In this document: positions 45,135 to 56,201 of the stretch, piece after piece
How positions within the stretch are numbered: position 1 is the stretch's first letter
How the letters are laid out: every line of letters starts with the position of its first letter
Assembly: GCA_019752335.1 (NCBI GenBank)
Contig: JAIEMJ010000001.1
Span: forward strand, 62,001-126,000
DNA from: Bryobacteraceae bacterium
GTDB taxonomy: Bacteria; Acidobacteriota; Terriglobia; Bryobacterales; Bryobacteraceae
DNA length: 64,000 bases
Direction: 5' to 3'
Program-made: the position numbers and the translations under genes
The notes under the pieces: generated by a model
Database searches by the model: none
Seen by the model: only the letters and a program-made list of their open reading frames with translations
Told to the model about the DNA's origin: nothing

Positions 45135-48100
45135 CTAAAACGTCAGCCGAGCCTGCACCTGCAGCCACCGGTTCGTCGCCGCCGTCTGACTGGTAATGCG
45201 CCCGAACAACGTCGAAAACGGATCGACGTTCGGCCCCGCCATCTGCGACCGGTTCTGCACATTCAACGCATCCAGCCGCAACTGCATCTTCACCCGCTCC
45301 GTTACCGCGAAGTTCTTGCCGAAGTTAGCGTTCCACTGGCTGGTAGAGTCAGCCCTCAGGCCAGGGATGCGCGTTGGGAAAACGCGCACGTGCGGTCCGT
45401 TCGGACCCCGCGTCGCCGTACGCTCGAAATTCGCGGTATTGAACCACGTATCCCAGTTGCGCGTCACGTTGTTCAAGTCATTCGGGTTGTTGCCGTAGTA
45501 AAAGAGATTCCCGAAATCCAGCAGCGGACCCGGCTGATACTCATAAGTCGCCGACGCCTGCCAGCCCCCCACCACCATGTCCACCGCCCGCGACGCGTTT
45601 CCCAGGAAACGGTGCTTCTTGCCGAACGGCAATTCATACACCGCCGTCATCGTAAAGCGATGCGGACGGCCATCGTTCGAAGGGCGCTCCGTGCGTACCG
45701 TGTCAAATTCATTGGCGAAAAAATCAGCTTCGCGCAGCTTCAAGGCCGTGTAACCCACGTTCAAATTCCAGCCCGCCGAAAAGCGCTTCTCAAACGAGAA
45801 CTGGAATTCGTCGGCCCGCGTATACGACGAGAATTCCGTATTATTCGTCACGCCATTCATCTGCGGGAAAGCCCGTAGTAACTGGCTCTTCCGGATCGTC
45901 GGCGACGTAAAAAATCCATTCGTATTCATGTCCGCCCAGACTGGGGCCGGGTAGTCCGCCCGGTTCAGGCTCCCGACGAAAAACGGATTCGCCACATTGG
46001 CGTTCATGTTGTTCGCGTTCGCGTCGTTGCGCACCGTGCCCGTGGCAAAATACTGGCTGGCCAGCGGCGTCTGGGTCTGGCCCAGTGAAATCCGGTCCGA
46101 GTAGGATCCCTGGTAGAAGGCCGTAATCACCATCCGCTCGCCGATCTGCCGCTGCAATCCCACCTGCCAGCGCTGCTGGCGTGCGTGCGGTTGATTGAAC
46201 GCGGTGTAGCCAAATCCGCGACCCTGCCGCGCGAAGCCGCCCAGCAAGTCCCGCGTCGGCGTGTCGAACCGCGTGCCATCCGCCCGCACCGGGAAAGGAT
46301 CGCGCAACGGGCTACCGCCGTTACCCGGGTTCGCATTTCCAGAAAAATTCCACGTCTGGCCGAAGTCGTTCGACACAATCATGCTCGTGGACCGCGAGTA
46401 GCCGAATTGGTCGGGCCCGAAATTCAGCACGTTGATCGTATCGAAGAACGTACCATAACCGCCACGCAACACCGTCCTCTTGTTCAACTGATACGCGACG
46501 CCCACGCGCGGCAGCCACATCAATTCGTTCTTGTAAAGCTGACGGGGCTTGCCGCCCGAACCGACGTAAGTATTCCCCCCCATCACCTTGAATTGGCTCA
46601 CCGGTAACTCCGGTATCGGATTGCGGGCATAATTCGCCTCTGCCGCTTTGGCGAACGGCGGTACGTAATTGGGATCGAAATTGCCAATCATCCGGTTGTA
46701 GCGTTCCGTCGCGCCCCGCTCATACTCCATGCGCAAGCCCAGGCTCAGCGTCAGCTTGCTCGACACCCGCCACGTATCTTGGACGAACGAAGCGTAGTAG
46801 GGGCTATGCGTCGCGTAAGTATCATTGATCGCGACGCTGCCGCTGCTCGGAATGCCGAGTAAGAACGCCGCCATACCTAGGCCCAGATCGCTCGCCGGCG
46901 TAAAGCCGTCGTCGTTGCGCCGCACATAGTTCTGGTTAAAGTTGAAATTCCCCGACGTATTGCCGCCTCCGCCTCCCGTCCGGTACTGGTTGCGATTGTC
47001 AAAGGCCACCCGAATCGAGTGGCTGCGCCGGATAAATGTGCCCTCCAGCTTCACCGTCATCTGACGCGTCCGCGTCGGCGTGCTAAAGCCGCCCGGGCTG
47101 ATCGTCGAGTATCCGGCAATCGCCATCTGCGGCAGCATCGTCAACGCGCCGGCCTGCGCATCCAGATAAGCAGGCAGGCCGATGCCCGAAGGCTTGTACT
47201 CCAACGCCTTCGGTTGGATATTCAATTCGCGGAATTGATTCATCGCCACATTCAGGTTCCACAAAGTCGTCGGCGACTGCGTATACACCACGTCAATATT
47301 GCCGCCCTTGTTATTCCGCACCAGGCCGCCCAGGTTCAAGCCCCGCGCGCTCTCGTAAGTCCAATCGCCGCGGTCCTCGGGTCCGAAGTTATTGATGGAC
47401 CAACGGCCGAACATCCGCCACTTATCGCTGATCTGGTAATCCATCCGGTTGGAGTAGGCGTAGTAGTCCCAGTTATACGGCGTCTGCGAAGCTAAGTAGT
47501 TAAACACCGGATCCTGCCCCGGAGCGATCGCCTGGTTCGGCTTCGGATAGAGCGCCAGAATCGCGTCCAGTGACGGATTCGCAAAACGGCTCTTCGGAAT
47601 GATATTGCCCGGGAAGGGCGTCCGGACAAAGTTATTCGGCCGGTTAGGGTCGCGAATGATCGAAGCCGGATCATGCACGATATATCGGCTCCCGTTGGGA
47701 ATGGCCAACATATCGCTGAAGTCGCCTTCGCGGGCGCGCAGGCTCGGCACGGTGCGATTGAACTGTGAGGCATCCTCCACCTTCACGTCCTTAAACGCGT
47801 TGTATGTGAAAAACCAGAAAAGCCGATTGCGTCCGTTGTAGAGTTTGGGAATAATTACCGCCCCGCCGCCCGACGCGCCCCAGTTATTCGACCTTCCCGT
47901 CGGCTGCTGGTCCGTCGCGCGTAGCCGATTGGCCAAAGTCGTGTTGCCCGCCGCCTCGGCCGCGGCGATATTGTCGAAGTAGCGCTTCTTCACGAAGAAA
48001 GGCGTGCCTTGCCAGCGCTGCTGCCAGTGCTGCCAGGTGGCGGTGCCATGAAAGTCGTTCGACCCCGACTTCGAAATCATCGAAATCGCGCTCCCCGTGG

Positions 48101-48779
48101 ACTGCCCGATTCCTGCGTCGAAGTTATTCGTCTCCACCTTGAATTCGGCCACCGCATCCGTATAAGGCAAGTAAGCCGTCCGGCGCCCGGGACCCTGATT
48201 CGGCGATCCATCCAGTGTCCAGGAATTACCACCGATATTGCCGCCTACCGAGTAATCCGATCCGCCCGCGTTCGAGTGCAGCGCCAAATAGTTATTCACG
48301 CCACCCGTCTGAATGCCCGGCGCGAGCTTCACCAGTAACATCGCCGAGTTTCCCATCACCGGCAACTCCATCAGCGACTTATTGTCGATTACCCGGCCCG
48401 AACTGACGGCGTTCGTCTCGAGCAACGGCGCCTCCGCCGTCACCGACACCGTCTCCGTGCCGCCGCCCACCTCCATCGTCAAGTCCACCTCCAGCCGCGA
48501 CGAGACCGGCAGCGTCACGCCCTTCCGCAGCAAACGCTTGAACCCAGCGTTCTCCGCGATCAGTTCATAGGTGCCGGGCAGTAGCAGGTTGGCTTCATAG
48601 TAGCCGGTGTCATTGGTCGTCAGGCTAATGCCCACGCCCGTCTCGGCGTTGCGCACCCTCACCTTGGCGCCCGCGATGGACGCCCCTTGCGAATCCAGCA
48701 CCCGGCCAAACATCATGGACCGTGTCTCCTGCGCATAGCTCAGCGCGCACACGGATAAGAAAAAGCAGACGAGACGCAT
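45135..48779 (-). CDS. Oar-like TonB-dependent receptor
   Basis: A 1214-residue protein, the longest in the window. Signal peptide (MRLVCFFLSVCALSYA), carboxypeptidase-regulatory-like domain (FGRVLDSQGASIAGAKVRVRN...GYYEANLLLPGTYELIA), plug with LMELPVMGNSAMLLVKLAPG and STGSAISMISKSGSNDFHG, then a long beta-barrel ending with QVQARLTF. It is intact, monocistronic by position, and convergent with the alpha/beta hydrolase gene (57 bases apart). Family is Oar/Cna-B type; substrate unknown. Confidence 0.94.
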   Translation of the reverse strand: MRLVCFFLSVCALSYAQETRSMMFGRVLDSQGASIAGAKVRVRNAETGVGISLTTNDTGYYEANLLLPGTYELIAENAGFKRLLRKGVTLPVSSRLEVDLTMEVGGGTETVSVTAEAPLLETNAVSSGRVIDNKSLMELPVMGNSAMLLVKLAPGIQTGGVNNYLALHSNAGGSDYSVGGNIGGNSWTLDGSPNQGPGRRTAYLPYTDAVAEFKVETNNFDAGIGQSTGSAISMISKSGSNDFHGTATWQHWQQRWQGTPFFVKKRYFDNIAAAEAAGNTTLANRLRATDQQPTGRSNNWGASGGGAVIIPKLYNGRNRLFWFFTYNAFKDVKVEDASQFNRTVPSLRAREGDFSDMLAIPNGSRYIVHDPASIIRDPNRPNNFVRTPFPGNIIPKSRFANPSLDAILALYPKPNQAIAPGQDPVFNYLASQTPYNWDYYAYSNRMDYQISDKWRMFGRWSINNFGPEDRGDWTYESARGLNLGGLVRNNKGGNIDVVYTQSPTTLWNLNVAMNQFRELNIQPKALEYKPSGIGLPAYLDAQAGALTMLPQMAIAGYSTISPGGFSTPTRTRQMTVKLEGTFIRRSHSIRVAFDNRNQYRTGGGGGNTSGNFNFNQNYVRRNDDGFTPASDLGLGMAAFLLGIPSSGSVAINDTYATHSPYYASFVQDTWRVSSKLTLSLGLRMEYERGATERYNRMIGNFDPNYVPPFAKAAEANYARNPIPELPVSQFKVMGGNTYVGSGGKPRQLYKNELMWLPRVGVAYQLNKRTVLRGGYGTFFDTINVLNFGPDQFGYSRSTSMIVSNDFGQTWNFSGNANPGNGGSPLRDPFPVRADGTRFDTPTRDLLGGFARQGRGFGYTAFNQPHARQQRWQVGLQRQIGERMVITAFYQGSYSDRISLGQTQTPLASQYFATGTVRNDANANNMNANVANPFFVGSLNRADYPAPVWADMNTNGFFTSPTIRKSQLLRAFPQMNGVTNNTEFSSYTRADEFQFSFEKRFSAGWNLNVGYTALKLREADFFANEFDTVRTERPSNDGRPHRFTMTAVYELPFGKKHRFLGNASRAVDMVVGGWQASATYEYQPGPLLDFGNLFYYGNNPNDLNNVTRNWDTWFNTANFERTATRGPNGPHVRVFPTRIPGLRADSTSQWNANFGKNFAVTERVKMQLRLDALNVQNRSQMAGPNVDPFSTLFGRITSQTAATNRWLQVQARLTF

Positions 48780-49228: not shown

Positions 49229-49705
49229 CTATCTCTTGGCGAACGTATGCACCGTATGGCATCCCGCGCAAGAAACCCGCGCCGCGACCCTTGGTTTGCC
49301 CGCGCAAGCCGCCGGTAGCGTCGTGTGGCAGCTCTGGCAACGCGCCGCCATCGCCGCCAGCGGACGCGGTGCATGATTCCCATGGCACGTCGCGCAATGG
49401 GCGCTCTTCTGCCCCGCCGCTAGCACCTTTGCGTGCGCGCTCGTCTCGTAGCTCTTCCGCTCCGCCACGTGGCACCCGCCGCACAGCACCGGCACCTGCT
49501 CCCGCGTCGCGACTCGGTCCGGCGCCGCGCCGCCCGCCGCCAGCCGATGCTTCTCGCTCGTCCCGTGGCAAGCATCGCAACTCACCTGCTTCGCGAAATG
49601 CTTGTGCGATTCCACATCCCCCGCCGCTTCCGTATGGCAAGGCTGGCAAAGCTGATGCACCTGGCCACTTACGCTCAGCGCCAGCAGCCACAGCAAGTGC
49701 CTCAT
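49229..49705 (-). CDS. Hexaheme c-type cytochrome
   Basis: A 158-residue protein with a signal peptide (MRHLLWLLALSVSG) and six CxxCH heme-binding motifs: CQPCH (20-24), CDACH (43-47), CGGCH (75-79), CATCH (104-108), CQSCH (123-127) and CAGCH (146-150). Extra histidines (HKHF, SEKH, HAK, GNHAP) can serve as distal ligands, giving a bis-histidine multiheme cytochrome of the c3/c7-like class. It would be a periplasmic electron carrier. Its ATG overlaps the stop of the FMN dehydrogenase gene (ATGA, 49702-49705), so the two are made together and likely pass electrons to each other. Confidence 0.93.
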   Translation of the reverse strand: MRHLLWLLALSVSGQVHQLCQPCHTEAAGDVESHKHFAKQVSCDACHGTSEKHRLAAGGAAPDRVATREQVPVLCGGCHVAERKSYETSAHAKVLAAGQKSAHCATCHGNHAPRPLAAMAARCQSCHTTLPAACAGKPRVAARVSCAGCHTVHTFAKR

Positions 49706-50871
49706 GCCGTGTGCTTCCTCACCAACCGACGCGTGATCGTCCCCAAGTGTGGTTGGCCCGCCAGCGCCATCGCGAGCTTGAGCTCGGCGTTCAGCATCCA
49801 CAGCACTCGTTCGACGCCCGGCTGGCCGAACGCCCCCAAGCCCCACAGCGGCGCGCGGCCCACCAGCACCGCTCGGGCGCCCAGGGCCAACGCCTTCAGG
49901 ATGTCGTTGCCCCGCCGCAGTCCGCCATCCACCAGCACCGGGATCCGGCCCGCCACCGCGTCCACCACCTCCGGCAAAGCGTCCAGCGTACCGATGGCTC
50001 CGTCCAGTTGGCGCCCCCCATGGTTCGAGACGCTGATTCCCGAAGCGCCCCGCTGCACGGCCAACTCGGCGTCCTCGGGCGCCAGAATGCCCTTCAGGAT
50101 AATCGGCAGATTGCTGGCGCTACGCACCCAGTCAATGTAGTCCCAGGTCAGGTTCGGCGTATGCGGTTGCCACATCGCGGCGCGCGCCGGATTCACGGGC
50201 TTTGGCGCCGGTTCGCCCGGTTTCGGGGTGCCCCGGCTCATCATCCCGTAGTCGAAGCGGTTGCGGTTATTCCGGTCCCGGTTGCTCTGATAAGCGTTAT
50301 CTACCGTGAGGACGATTGCCTTGCCGCCCGTGTCCTCGGTCCGCTTGGCAAAATTCACCGCGGCCTCTTTGTTCGGCTGGCCGATGCCGTTAATCCACCA
50401 TTGCAGCGGTTCGCCCGCGTCCAGCAGTTTCTTTGCGCCCGTGGCCGAACACAACACTGTCTTCGCGGCCAGTGCCGCCTTCGCCACCACCTCCTCGGCC
50501 CCCGGCATCACCAGGTCCTTGCCGCCCGTGGGAGAAATGATGATCGGCGACGCTAGCTTCTGCCCGAACAGTTCCAGCGACAGGTCCACGTTGCTCACGT
50601 CCACCATCACGCGCGGCACCAGGTCCCAATGGCCGATCGCTTCGAGATTGGCCCGCAGCGTGCGCTCGTCCTCCACGCCGCCCGCGATAAAGTCGTAAGC
50701 CAATTTGTGCAGCTTGCGCTTGGCCACCTCCTCGAACTCGTGGACATTCACGGGTCCCGTCACGTCCTCATCCATCACGTCGGCCCGCAGGAAGGGCGAA
50801 AACAGGGGCGATCCGGCAGTGTGTGCGGCGAACAAACTAAGCGCGGTGCGTCGATTCATCTCGCTAGTCAT
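49702..50871 (-). CDS. FMN-dependent alpha-hydroxy acid dehydrogenase, probably exported
   Basis: I place the start at ATG 50871 (MTSEMNRRTALSLFAA; ATG 50859 is equally possible); further upstream frame extends but is non-conserved. The product has about 389 residues. The leader NRRTALSLFAAHTAG looks like a Tat signal. FMN-dehydrogenase family motifs (lactate, glycolate oxidase): KLAYDFIAGGVEDE, SPTGGKDLVMPGAE, ILKGILAPEDAELAVQRG and the catalytic SNHGGRQLDG near residue 280, then PVLVDGGLRRG. It oxidises a 2-hydroxyacid such as L-lactate. Coupling to a multiheme cytochrome suggests a dehydrogenase, not an oxidase. It diverges from the cytochrome c' gene. Confidence 0.88.
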   Translation of the reverse strand: MTSEMNRRTALSLFAAHTAGSPLFSPFLRADVMDEDVTGPVNVHEFEEVAKRKLHKLAYDFIAGGVEDERTLRANLEAIGHWDLVPRVMVDVSNVDLSLELFGQKLASPIIISPTGGKDLVMPGAEEVVAKAALAAKTVLCSATGAKKLLDAGEPLQWWINGIGQPNKEAAVNFAKRTEDTGGKAIVLTVDNAYQSNRDRNNRNRFDYGMMSRGTPKPGEPAPKPVNPARAAMWQPHTPNLTWDYIDWVRSASNLPIILKGILAPEDAELAVQRGASGISVSNHGGRQLDGAIGTLDALPEVVDAVAGRIPVLVDGGLRRGNDILKALALGARAVLVGRAPLWGLGAFGQPGVERVLWMLNAELKLAMALAGQPHLGTITRRLVRKHTA

Positions 50872-50895
50872 CATATCCCGATTAATGACTATTGG

Positions 50896-50923
50896 TTGCA
50901 CGCTGGTACTGACGGGTGATACT
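50896..50923 (+). promoter_or_regulatory. Candidate promoter for the cytochrome c'-like gene
   Basis: TTGCAC (50896-50901) and GATACT (50918-50923) are spaced by 16 bases, upstream of ATG 50933. The fit is moderate and the transcription start would be very close to the ATG, so this is tentative. The same 61-base gap must also hold the promoter of the divergent FMN dehydrogenase. Confidence 0.3.
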
Positions 50924-50932
50924 CTCTTTGGC

Positions 50933-51343
50933 ATGACTAAGCGTTCTCGCATTTTACTCGCTACCGGCTTTCTAGCCGCTTTCACCGTGTTCGCCGTCAC
51001 CGAAGCCGAATTGGCCACGGCGATGAAGGCGACTCAGAAGTCCATGGGCGCTCTGAAGAAGGGCGGCAAGACTGGCCCCGACGCGGAAGCCGCCGCCACC
51101 ACCATTCAGAAGAGCATGGTCGCAGGCGCCGCGTTCTTTAAGGAACACAAGATGGCCGAAGCCGAAGAATGGTCCATGAAGGCCGCTAAGAGCGCGGGCG
51201 AATTGGCCGCTGCCGCCAAGGCCAACGACGAAGCCGCCGCCACCGCCGCTTTCGGCGGAGTCGCTTCCAGTTGCAAAACCTGCCACACCGCCTACCGCGA
51301 GCAAACCGCCGAGGGTGGCTACAAAGTGAAGATGTCGCACTAA
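50933..51343 (+). CDS. Cytochrome c'-like protein
   Basis: ATG 50933 gives 136 residues with a signal peptide (MTKRSRILLATGFLAAFTVFA). The mature part is Ala/Lys-rich and entirely helical in appearance, with one C-terminal heme motif C114-KT-C117-H118 followed by TAYRE. This layout, four helices with CxxCH near the C-terminus, is that of cytochrome c'/c-556-type proteins, which act in electron transfer or bind small gases. It diverges from the FMN dehydrogenase/hexaheme cytochrome operon with a 61-base gap, which suggests shared regulation. A strong hairpin terminator follows. Confidence 0.85.
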   Translation: MTKRSRILLATGFLAAFTVFAVTEAELATAMKATQKSMGALKKGGKTGPDAEAAATTIQKSMVAGAAFFKEHKMAEAEEWSMKAAKSAGELAAAAKANDEAAATAAFGGVASSCKTCHTAYREQTAEGGYKVKMSH

Positions 51344-54644: not shown

Positions 54645-56201
54645 CTAGTGCAACGACGCCGCTTCCGCTCCCAGCCCCGTATGGGCCCGTACCTGCATCT
54701 CGACGAACTTCGCTTCGCTCGCTGGTTCCCGCCCCAGCAAGCTGCCCAGTAACGCCGCCGCGAAGCCCAGCGGGATGCTCACGATGCCCGGGTTCTCCAG
54801 CGGGAATAGTGCCTGCGCCGCGCCCCGCACGCTGGGGCCCACCAGGATCAGGAGGATGGAACTCGCCAAGCCCACGCCCAGGCCGCAGACGGCGCCGGTC
54901 GTGTTGAAGCGCTTCCAGAAAAGCGTCAGCAGGATTACTGGCAGATTCGCCGACGCCGCCACCGCAAAGGCCAGTCCCACCAGGAACGCCACGTTGGCCG
55001 AAGGCCCCAAGGCAATGGCGCTGGCGATGGCCAGGACGCCCACGACGAGCGCGGTGACTCGCGCCACGCGCACCTCGGTCTCCGGGCTCAACTCGCGATC
55101 CCGAAAGAGGAAGCCGGCGTAGAAGTCGTGCGCGAAGGAGGTCGAAGCGGTGATCGTCAGGCCGGCCACCACGGCCAGAATCGTCGCGAACGCCACGGCG
55201 CAGATGAAGGCGAAAAACACCTCGCCGCCCAGGGCCTGCGCCAGCAACGGCGCGCTCATGTTGATGCCGCCGCCGCGCTTGATCGCGTCCGGCCCCACGA
55301 TCGTCGCCGCGCCGAAGCCCAGAAAGGTCGTCATGATGTAGAACGTGCCGATGATGGCCATGGCCCACACCACGCTTACCCGCGCCGTGGGCGCGTCCGG
55401 CACCGTATAGAAGCGCACCAGAATGTGCGGCAAGCCGGCCGTGCCGAATACCAGCGCCAGCCCTAATGACAGCAGGTTCCAGGTGCCATAAGGCGGCCTG
55501 TAGTACCAGCCTGGCAGCAGGAAGTCGCGCGTGACGGGCGCGCCATCCACGGTGAAAGTGACATGCGCTACGGCGTCGAAGAAGCGGGCGAAGGAGAAGT
55601 CGAAGTGGGCCAGTACCAGCATGCTCAGCAGCAGCGTGCCGCCCATCAGCAGCACGGCCTTCACAATCTGCACCCAAGTGGTGGCCAGCATGCCGCCAAA
55701 GACCACATAGAGCACCATCAGCAACCCGACGCCTGCCACGGCCCCCTGGAACGACACGCCCGACTCCTTCAACAACAGCGATACCAGCGTACCCGCGCCT
55801 ACCATTTGCGCGATCATGTAGAACGTGCTCACGGTGAGCGTGCTCAAGGCCGCCATCGCCCTTACCGGCCGCGCCTGCAAGCGGTAAGCGAGGATGTCGG
55901 CCATCGTGTACTTGCCAATGTTCCGCAGCGGCTCGGCCACCACCAACAGCACCGTCAAATAAGCCACCAGCCAGCCCACCGAGTACATAAAGCCGTCATA
56001 GCCATAGAAGGCGATCAGCCCGGCGATGCCCAGAAACGACGCCGCCGACATGTAGTCGCCCGCCACCGCGAGCCCGTTCTGCCATCCCGTAATCCTCCGC
56101 CCGGCGGCAAAGAACGCGCCCGCGCCCTGGCTCTTGCCCGCGCTCCATAGCGTGATCCCCAGCGTCAATAGCACAAAGCCGACAAAGATGGCCAGCGTCA
56201 T
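54645..56201 (-). CDS. SSS-family sodium:solute symporter (acetate/monocarboxylate type)
   Basis: A 518-residue membrane protein with about 13 helices. Family features include [32 protein letters not shown] (sodium-site helix 1 region), [17 protein letters not shown] and [33 protein letters not shown]-type signature (here [18 protein letters not shown]). The match is to ActP-like symporters that import acetate and related acids. Its N-terminal end overlaps the DUF485 gene by 4 bases (ATGA), an arrangement typical of actP-yjcH pairs, and a third small gene follows. Substrate is inferred only from family and neighbours. Confidence 0.92.

Follow-up and report, generated by a model that had tools for sequence, protein, structure and literature searches.

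In the 64,000-nucleotide stretch of a Bryobacteraceae genome analysed here (the window; GCA_019752335.1, contig JAIEMJ010000001.1, positions 62,001 to 126,000), a gene for a flavin mononucleotide (FMN)-dependent dehydrogenase, FMN_dh, is followed on the same strand by a gene for a hexaheme c-type cytochrome (Table 1). The cytochrome gene starts with an ATG at 49705 that overlaps the TGA of the enzyme gene by four bases (shared ATGA), and it encodes 158 residues with six CxxCH motifs. The enzyme has 385 to 390 residues. Its possible starts are three in-frame ATG codons, at 50874, 50871 and 50859, and a GTG is also present at 51018. All of these codons lie upstream of an Arg pair, so the N-terminal leader is kept with each; counting from the ATG at 50859, the following Met comes at residue 29, and no later start was found that removes the leader and spares the conserved stretch. 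The divergent cytochrome c' gene lies 58–61 bases from the ATGs at 50874 and 50871. The original prediction, made from the letters of this DNA, had described an FMN enzyme with a leader of the twin-arginine translocation (Tat) type, an ATGA overlap with a hexaheme gene and a divergent cytochrome c' gene 61 bases away. This gene arrangement is confirmed, and the interpretation attached to it is partly supported.

We consider it probable that a periplasmic FMN dehydrogenase and the hexaheme cytochrome c as its electron acceptor form a two-gene dehydrogenase. The pair is conserved in soil bacteria of the Bryobacter group, and it looks like an apparently unstudied entry point into respiration, with electrons passing directly from an exported flavin enzyme to a six-heme protein. 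In 424 kb of the same genome sampled, window included, no open reading frame with at least four CxxCH motifs was found besides the hexaheme gene. This, together with a gene order kept at 54 of 63 orthologous loci, places the pairing beyond chance.

Table 1. Features of the locus and of related loci (window coordinates, except where a locus handle is given)
Feature	Position	Strand	Evidence
FMN-dependent dehydrogenase (PF01070), twin-arginine leader MNRRTALSLFAAHTAGSPLF	49702..50874	minus	PF01070 match, leader alignment, TIM-barrel model
Leader-coding stretch	50800..50859	minus	Arg3-Arg4 and Ser17-Pro18-Leu19 invariant in 37 aligned orthologs
Hexaheme c-type cytochrome	49229..49705	minus	Six CxxCH, six more invariant His, Sec-type signal peptide by eye
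Cytochrome c' (PF01322)	50933..51343	plus	Divergent genus-specific neighbour, outside the conserved unit
Monocarboxylate-type sodium symporter (SSF)	54645..56201	minus	MctC model, 641.6 bits vs cut-off 670
Pentaheme open reading frames upstream of leader-bearing Tyr129 FMN_dh paralogs	L120 2967-3467; L127 4529-5611

The enzyme, its leader and the cytochrome

The only full-length Pfam match of FMN_dh is PF01070 (E = 1.3e-103; 347.2 bits against a gathering cut-off of 24.9; profile positions 1–349 of 350), and no match to PF00173, the fused cytochrome b5 domain, was found among the eight Pfam families listed. Its AlphaFold2 model is a TIM barrel with a predicted local distance difference test score (pLDDT) of 84, and this FMN-free model matched glycolate oxidases at E about 1e-27. 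Residues were mapped by profile alignment to spinach glycolate oxidase. The positions of Asp157, Arg164, Lys230, His254 and Arg257 are retained, and those of Tyr24, Tyr129 and Gln127 are occupied by Phe57, Gly158 (Thr in most orthologs) and Ile156 (Ser in most orthologs). The conserved active-site residues of the family are presumably Tyr24, Tyr129, Asp157, Arg164, Lys230, His254 and Arg257; on this assumption the enzyme has five of the seven, fewer than an S-2-hydroxyacid oxidase or dehydrogenase should have. A published account of the family describes seven active-site residues as conserved among all members; in one survey, eight of the ten inactive members lacked at least one of the seven, as did two of the 14 active ones (PMC8491902). 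The same account gives oxygen, cytochrome c (for flavocytochrome b2) or quinone as the electron acceptors in the family. The NCBIfam lactate models all stayed below their cut-offs for FMN_dh (PRK11197, 215 of 376 bits; LldD, 183 of 550; lactate oxidase, 206 of 645.5), and the model of MftD scored nearly the same as the lactate dehydrogenase model (212 vs 215 bits), both far under cut-off. With Phe57 and Gly158 in place of Tyr24 and Tyr129 and no lactate model at cut-off, the earlier label of an L-lactate/glycolate-type dehydrogenase overreaches. FMN_dh belongs to the PF01070 superfamily, but its annotation should be neither L-lactate nor glycolate dehydrogenase. Since two catalytic tyrosines are replaced, the substrate may be other than an ordinary 2-hydroxyacid.

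The N-terminus extends about 15 to 20 residues ahead of the conserved part of FMN_dh, and much of it is variable outside the five invariant positions (Table 1). In many loci, no possible start precedes the Met that sits immediately ahead of the Arg pair. An approximate Tat rule devised for this analysis was passed by 55 of 60 orthologs; among 180 other genes 10 passed, and some of these resemble genuine Tat substrates. The genome of the window encodes TatC. The conserved twin Arg upholds the predicted export-type leader. Leaders were unassigned in 4 of 72 sequences: L083, L106 (contig end) and L014/L105, one protein present twice, in whose raw leaders the Arg pair is visible. The leader was also tried as a distinguishing feature of this gene and rejected, because 26 of the 27 paralogs that retain Tyr129 carry an Arg pair in their leaders. 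It further occurs on paralogs without cytochrome neighbours, most of which retain Tyr129.

The cytochrome begins with MRHLLWLLALSVSGQ, a Sec-type signal as judged by eye. Among 41 aligned hexahemes, the six CxxCH sets and His34, His36, His53, His91, His111 and His153 are invariant, as are Gly48, Gly58, Pro62 and Gly76. Six proximal and six distal His predict six bis-His hemes, and the protein is thus predicted to carry electrons and not to act as a catalytic heme protein. Its weak profile matches include DmsE/MtrA and small tetraheme carriers, among others, and the best PDB profile match is chain 6r2q_A. We take this chain to be MtrA, despite a different label in the search output. The DmsE profile TIGR03508 was weakly matched by 40 of the 41 hexahemes. 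Unlike the DmsE/MtrA decahemes, the window protein has six CxxCH motifs rather than ten hemes, is only 158 residues long and scored 26.1 bits against a cut-off of 192.

Conservation of the pair and its wider clade

A search of 61 related genomes gave ten best enzymes, one per genome (>380 bits, that of the window included), and the hexaheme gene follows the enzyme in nine of the ten genomes. Strong hexaheme matches (>120 bits) in the 61 relatives were confined to nine of the ten enzyme genomes and to G027 and G010. The enzyme of the nearest relative, a Bryobacter sp., is 91% identical to that of the window. A scan of a named genome collection with the alignment of the ten enzymes returned 62 loci, 59 of them under Acidobacteriota titles; the scan relied on two peptide patterns, and relatives without them escape detection. 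Once the nine duplicates L006–L014 were dropped, 63 non-redundant orthologous loci remained, each counted once and including the window. A hexaheme gene lies directly downstream on the same strand intact at 54 of them, is broken at one (L071, with three CxxCH in frame and a tetra label in the tree) and is absent at eight. For the chosen starts, 45 of the intact pairs overlap by 4 bases, four by 1 and four by 10, with one 359-base gap; the choice of starts favoured overlaps of about 4 bases and Arg-pair leaders, so these counts lean that way, and raw leaders and the alignment served as a check. The gene order is therefore conserved, a point on which the original prediction had asked for a check.

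A survey of 250 genomes of the class supports the same association. Enzyme orthologs were those over 500 bits, a cut placed in the gap between 516 and 439, and scoring covered the best 14 and 7 first-look candidates of each genome, which leaves room for misses. The enzyme was found in 17 genomes and the hexaheme in 15. Both occurred in 14, in all of which they are adjacent by coordinates, once across 434 bases (Fisher p 3e-19, uncorrected for kinship). The suggested co-occurrence in related genomes is borne out by these 14.

Flanking genes are partly shared. The gene atpB (ATP synthase a-subunit) lies downstream on the same strand in at least 31 of the 63 loci (e.g., L069, L061 and L082), hemD (uroporphyrinogen-III synthase) upstream in at least 24, and both occur in at least 21; these are lower bounds, as several loci end early. 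The view, formed on ten loci, that flanking genes differ everywhere was too strong once the 63 loci were counted. Neither hemD nor atpB lies within the 64 kb of the window, and the pair is thus also kept together outside the hemD/atp cluster.

A tree of 106 PF01070 proteins separates 27 with Tyr129 from 79 without it (support 100/97); L133_4741 was left out of both the tree and the residue table. The paralogs came from 40 further stretches, three of them taken for other questions, and from the search loci, covering part of the listed matches. Because the loci were gathered with hexaheme-linked enzymes as query, the group sizes are not natural proportions, and the clade counts are not independent of kinship. 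Of the 79, 62 form a hexaheme-linked set and the other 17 its sister set. In the sister set a tetraheme gene lies downstream in 12 of 17, sometimes with a beta-propeller-like gene between, and Tyr24 is retained in 17 of 17 alongside the change at Tyr129. Genes with at least four CxxCH were counted within 2.2 kb, on both sides and strands. Such a gene lies downstream on the same strand in 65 of the 79 sequences without Tyr129 vs none of the 27 with it, with less than 2.2 kb of downstream sequence in 8 of the 27 and in 3 of the 14 partnerless sequences without Tyr129. His280, Arg283, Asp187, Lys256 and Arg194 are present in all 79. The conserved residues new to this clade are Lys114, Trp155 and Asn157; Gly113 and Lys114 occur in 78 of 79, and Lys114 in none of the 27 Tyr129 sequences. 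Gly112, a dehydrogenase marker that we presume from Gly81 of mandelate dehydrogenase, proved non-discriminating, as it occurs in all 79 but also in 15 of the 27 others.

A putative two-gene dehydrogenase and its alternatives

In the proposed mechanism, the FMN enzyme would fold with its cofactor in the cytoplasm and then be exported by Tat, while the hexaheme apocytochrome would leave by Sec and receive its hemes from the maturation system for c-type cytochromes; the same genome gave three matches for cytochrome c assembly. The enzyme would oxidise a small hydroxylated substrate, a 2-hydroxyacid or a close relative, in the periplasm with the usual His/Arg/Asp/Lys set. The bis-His hexaheme would re-oxidise the reduced FMN in single-electron steps, and from it electrons would pass to the cytochrome c pool and on to c-accepting terminal oxidases. 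Two heme-copper oxidase subunits I are encoded in the genome, both next to a gene with one CxxCH, which makes c-type electron entry plausible. Export in fact, the substrate, the direct transfer and the downstream acceptor are the parts of this scheme that we infer.

Known systems share elements with the pair. Membrane-bound flavoprotein-cytochrome c dehydrogenases of the gluconate dehydrogenase type encode an exported flavoprotein together with a multiheme subunit; they use flavin adenine dinucleotide (FAD), have a different fold and contain a third subunit. The co-encoded multiheme protein is thus shared with them, whereas the flavoprotein here is a PF01070 FMN enzyme. The lactate (LldD), glycolate and mandelate dehydrogenases and oxidases have the fold and five catalytic positions in common with FMN_dh, which differs from them in its leader, its hexaheme partner, the replaced Tyr24 and Tyr129 and scores far under the NCBIfam cut-offs. 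Flavocytochrome b2, which sits outside the inner membrane, carries a fused cytochrome b5 domain, whereas the enzyme here has none and is paired with a separate c-type hexaheme, with two catalytic Tyr missing. The yeast protein (L-lactate:cytochrome c oxidoreductase) resembles FMN_dh in its PF01070 barrel and in passing electrons to cytochrome c (PMC8491902). A parallel in organisation is that of the NicA2/CycN-type amine dehydrogenases, which have a Tat-exported flavoenzyme, an adjacent cytochrome c gene and cytochrome-less members too (PMC12224317). There, an FAD amine oxidoreductase is paired with a cytochrome c; here, a PF01070 FMN barrel is paired with a predicted bis-His hexaheme. In that other flavoprotein family, a Tat signal together with a cytochrome c gene in the operon correctly predicted which enzymes were measured to be dehydrogenases using cytochrome c (PMC12224317). 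Both marks of this class are found here: a twin-arginine leader (invariant in 37 aligned orthologs; 55 of 60 pass our own rule, the window at threshold) and an adjacent cytochrome c gene (54 of 63 loci). The searched literature, which comprised titles and abstract openings and left most subscription papers outside, contained no description of a PF01070 enzyme that combines Tat export with a multiheme cytochrome encoded separately. Each element is known, and the combination is apparently new.

Several observations weigh against the two-gene dehydrogenase. The Tyr24, Gln127 and Tyr129 positions are altered. A His within the hydrophobic part makes five close relatives of the window fail the Tat rule, which the window leader itself passes just at threshold; the leader is thus well supported as a family trait and less so for the window protein. 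The AlphaFold2 model of the hexaheme is modest (pLDDT 77, predicted template modelling score 0.58), and a fold search with it gave no match at E < 0.001. The cytochrome is absent at L050, L051, L072, L091, L095, L096, L097 and L101 (the last with just 1.7 kb of sequence downstream), which indicates that the enzyme can persist without an adjacent hexaheme gene. In the 250-genome survey, G208, G240 and G014 have the enzyme without the cytochrome. G027 carries a hexaheme without the enzyme, beside atp genes, as perhaps does G010, where the cytochrome lies at a contig end. Finally, the Tyr129 paralogs L120 and L127 have pentaheme open reading frames 41 and 49 bases upstream. The notion of a multiheme partner only without Tyr129 was rejected on this ground, and multiheme pairing is typical of the group without Tyr129, not confined to it. 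The L120 and L127 neighbourhoods are a further, third variant of the pairing of FMN_dh with multihemes.

The foremost alternative keeps the partnership and changes the reaction, so that the enzyme would not be a 2-hydroxyacid dehydrogenase and would act on, for example, an amine, a sugar-derived compound or a peptide. We regard it as unlikely, although pre-mycofactocin synthase MftD provides a precedent for a changed reaction in the PF01070 superfamily. The replacements of Tyr24 and Tyr129 (Phe57, Gly/Thr158) and of Gln127 (Ser/Ile156), the new Lys114, Trp155 and Asn157, and the near-equal scores of the MftD and lactate dehydrogenase models point in this direction. However, the five catalytic residues from Asp187 to Arg283 are kept throughout the 79 sequences without Tyr129, and Tyr24 is retained throughout the sister clade.

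That the two genes are merely co-expressed, with a cytochrome that serves another donor and an enzyme that acts in the periplasm as an oxidase or reduces quinone, is improbable. The eight loci with the enzyme alone, the lone cytochrome of G027 and the common leader-bearing paralogs without a multiheme neighbour are consistent with it, and most Tat-only amine oxidoreductase members tested were oxidases (PMC12224317). Yet overlaps at the chosen starts join 53 of the 54 intact pairs, inside and outside the hemD/atp cluster, and of the sister enzyme clades one is linked to six-heme and the other to four-heme cytochromes.

Two further readings are very improbable. The enzyme could remain cytoplasmic or membrane-bound with its leader unused and quinone as acceptor, as the weak Tat match and the lack of a clear AxA site in the window leader would allow; the twin Arg and Ser-Pro-Leu, invariant in 37 orthologs despite the variable rest, the Met just before the Arg pair as first possible start in many loci, and the CxxCH motifs and leader of the partner, which imply a periplasmic site, all argue against this. 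Electrons could also flow in reverse, from the cytochrome to the FMN enzyme and an oxo compound, a chance as slight as the former; multiheme donors do feed flavin reductases, namely the flavocytochrome c3 fumarate and urocanate reductases. Against reverse flow stand the heme-copper oxidases of the same genome. The PF01070 enzymes are moreover known to oxidise their substrates (PMC8491902).

Little is known of the electron donors of Acidobacteriota, although this phylum is among the most common in soil. If the two-gene dehydrogenase is real, it would show how these bacteria oxidise small organic compounds without prior uptake into the cell. A textbook flavoenzyme family whose heme coupling is known mainly from flavocytochrome b2 would gain a second branch of this kind, and bioelectrochemistry a compact pair that links flavin to heme. 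The clade-specific residue changes render the substrate question directly testable. A bolder proposal, which we put forward tentatively and with some doubt, is that the 79 sequences without Tyr129 could constitute a class of their own among exported FMN dehydrogenases, with multiheme cytochromes as their specialised acceptors and a substrate not known for PF01070. A six-heme wire, distantly MtrA/DmsE-like, would feed electrons from small soil organics to the cytochrome c pool or the cell surface, and in a third to half of the loci gene order would tie it to the genes of heme synthesis and of ATP synthase.

Neighbouring genes and minor observations

The cytochrome c' gene (PF01322, E = 1.4e-08) had been proposed as part of the system. 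It was rejected as a component, since it adjoins the pair in just two of the 63 loci, namely the window and, within the same genus, L045. L063 has a third match, a weak one, at a distance of about 4 kb on the same strand. The monocarboxylate-type symporter about 4 kb from the pair may be an importer of the product. Downstream of the pair, on the minus strand at 45135-48779, an outer membrane beta-barrel protein of 1214 residues with a carboxypeptidase-regulatory-like domain (PF13620, PF25183) is encoded.

Some loci depart from the simple pair. At L043 and L105, tandem FMN_dh copies, one of them fragmented, precede a single hexaheme gene. The orphan hexaheme gene of G027 lies at L112 (G027:C5, 7405-7899) by atp genes with no paired FMN_dh, and at L147 the same genome holds an FMN_dh with a broken frame that is similar to the tetraheme type. 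Records L089, L104 and L101 are titled Acidimicrobiia or Limisphaerales; their genes nest among Acidobacteriota, and they are probably mislabelled or misbinned.

At L119, L121, L137, L139 and neighbours, a leader-bearing FMN_dh is accompanied by a beta-propeller-like protein of about 255–265 residues and mostly by a tetraheme cytochrome. Pfam searches with two proteins of this middle gene gave sub-cut-off matches in one and none in the other. In the genome of the window, L002 and L004 (G000:C3:112049-114075) hold another leader-bearing FMN_dh with a shorter FMN_dh-like gene directly after it, and similar tandem matches occur in several relatives. Lastly, L114 (G014:C36:1-10000) encodes proteins with 5, 10 and 10 CxxCH motifs and then a protein of 641 residues, an arrangement like a porin-cytochrome conduit, in a genome that has FMN_dh without a hexaheme partner.

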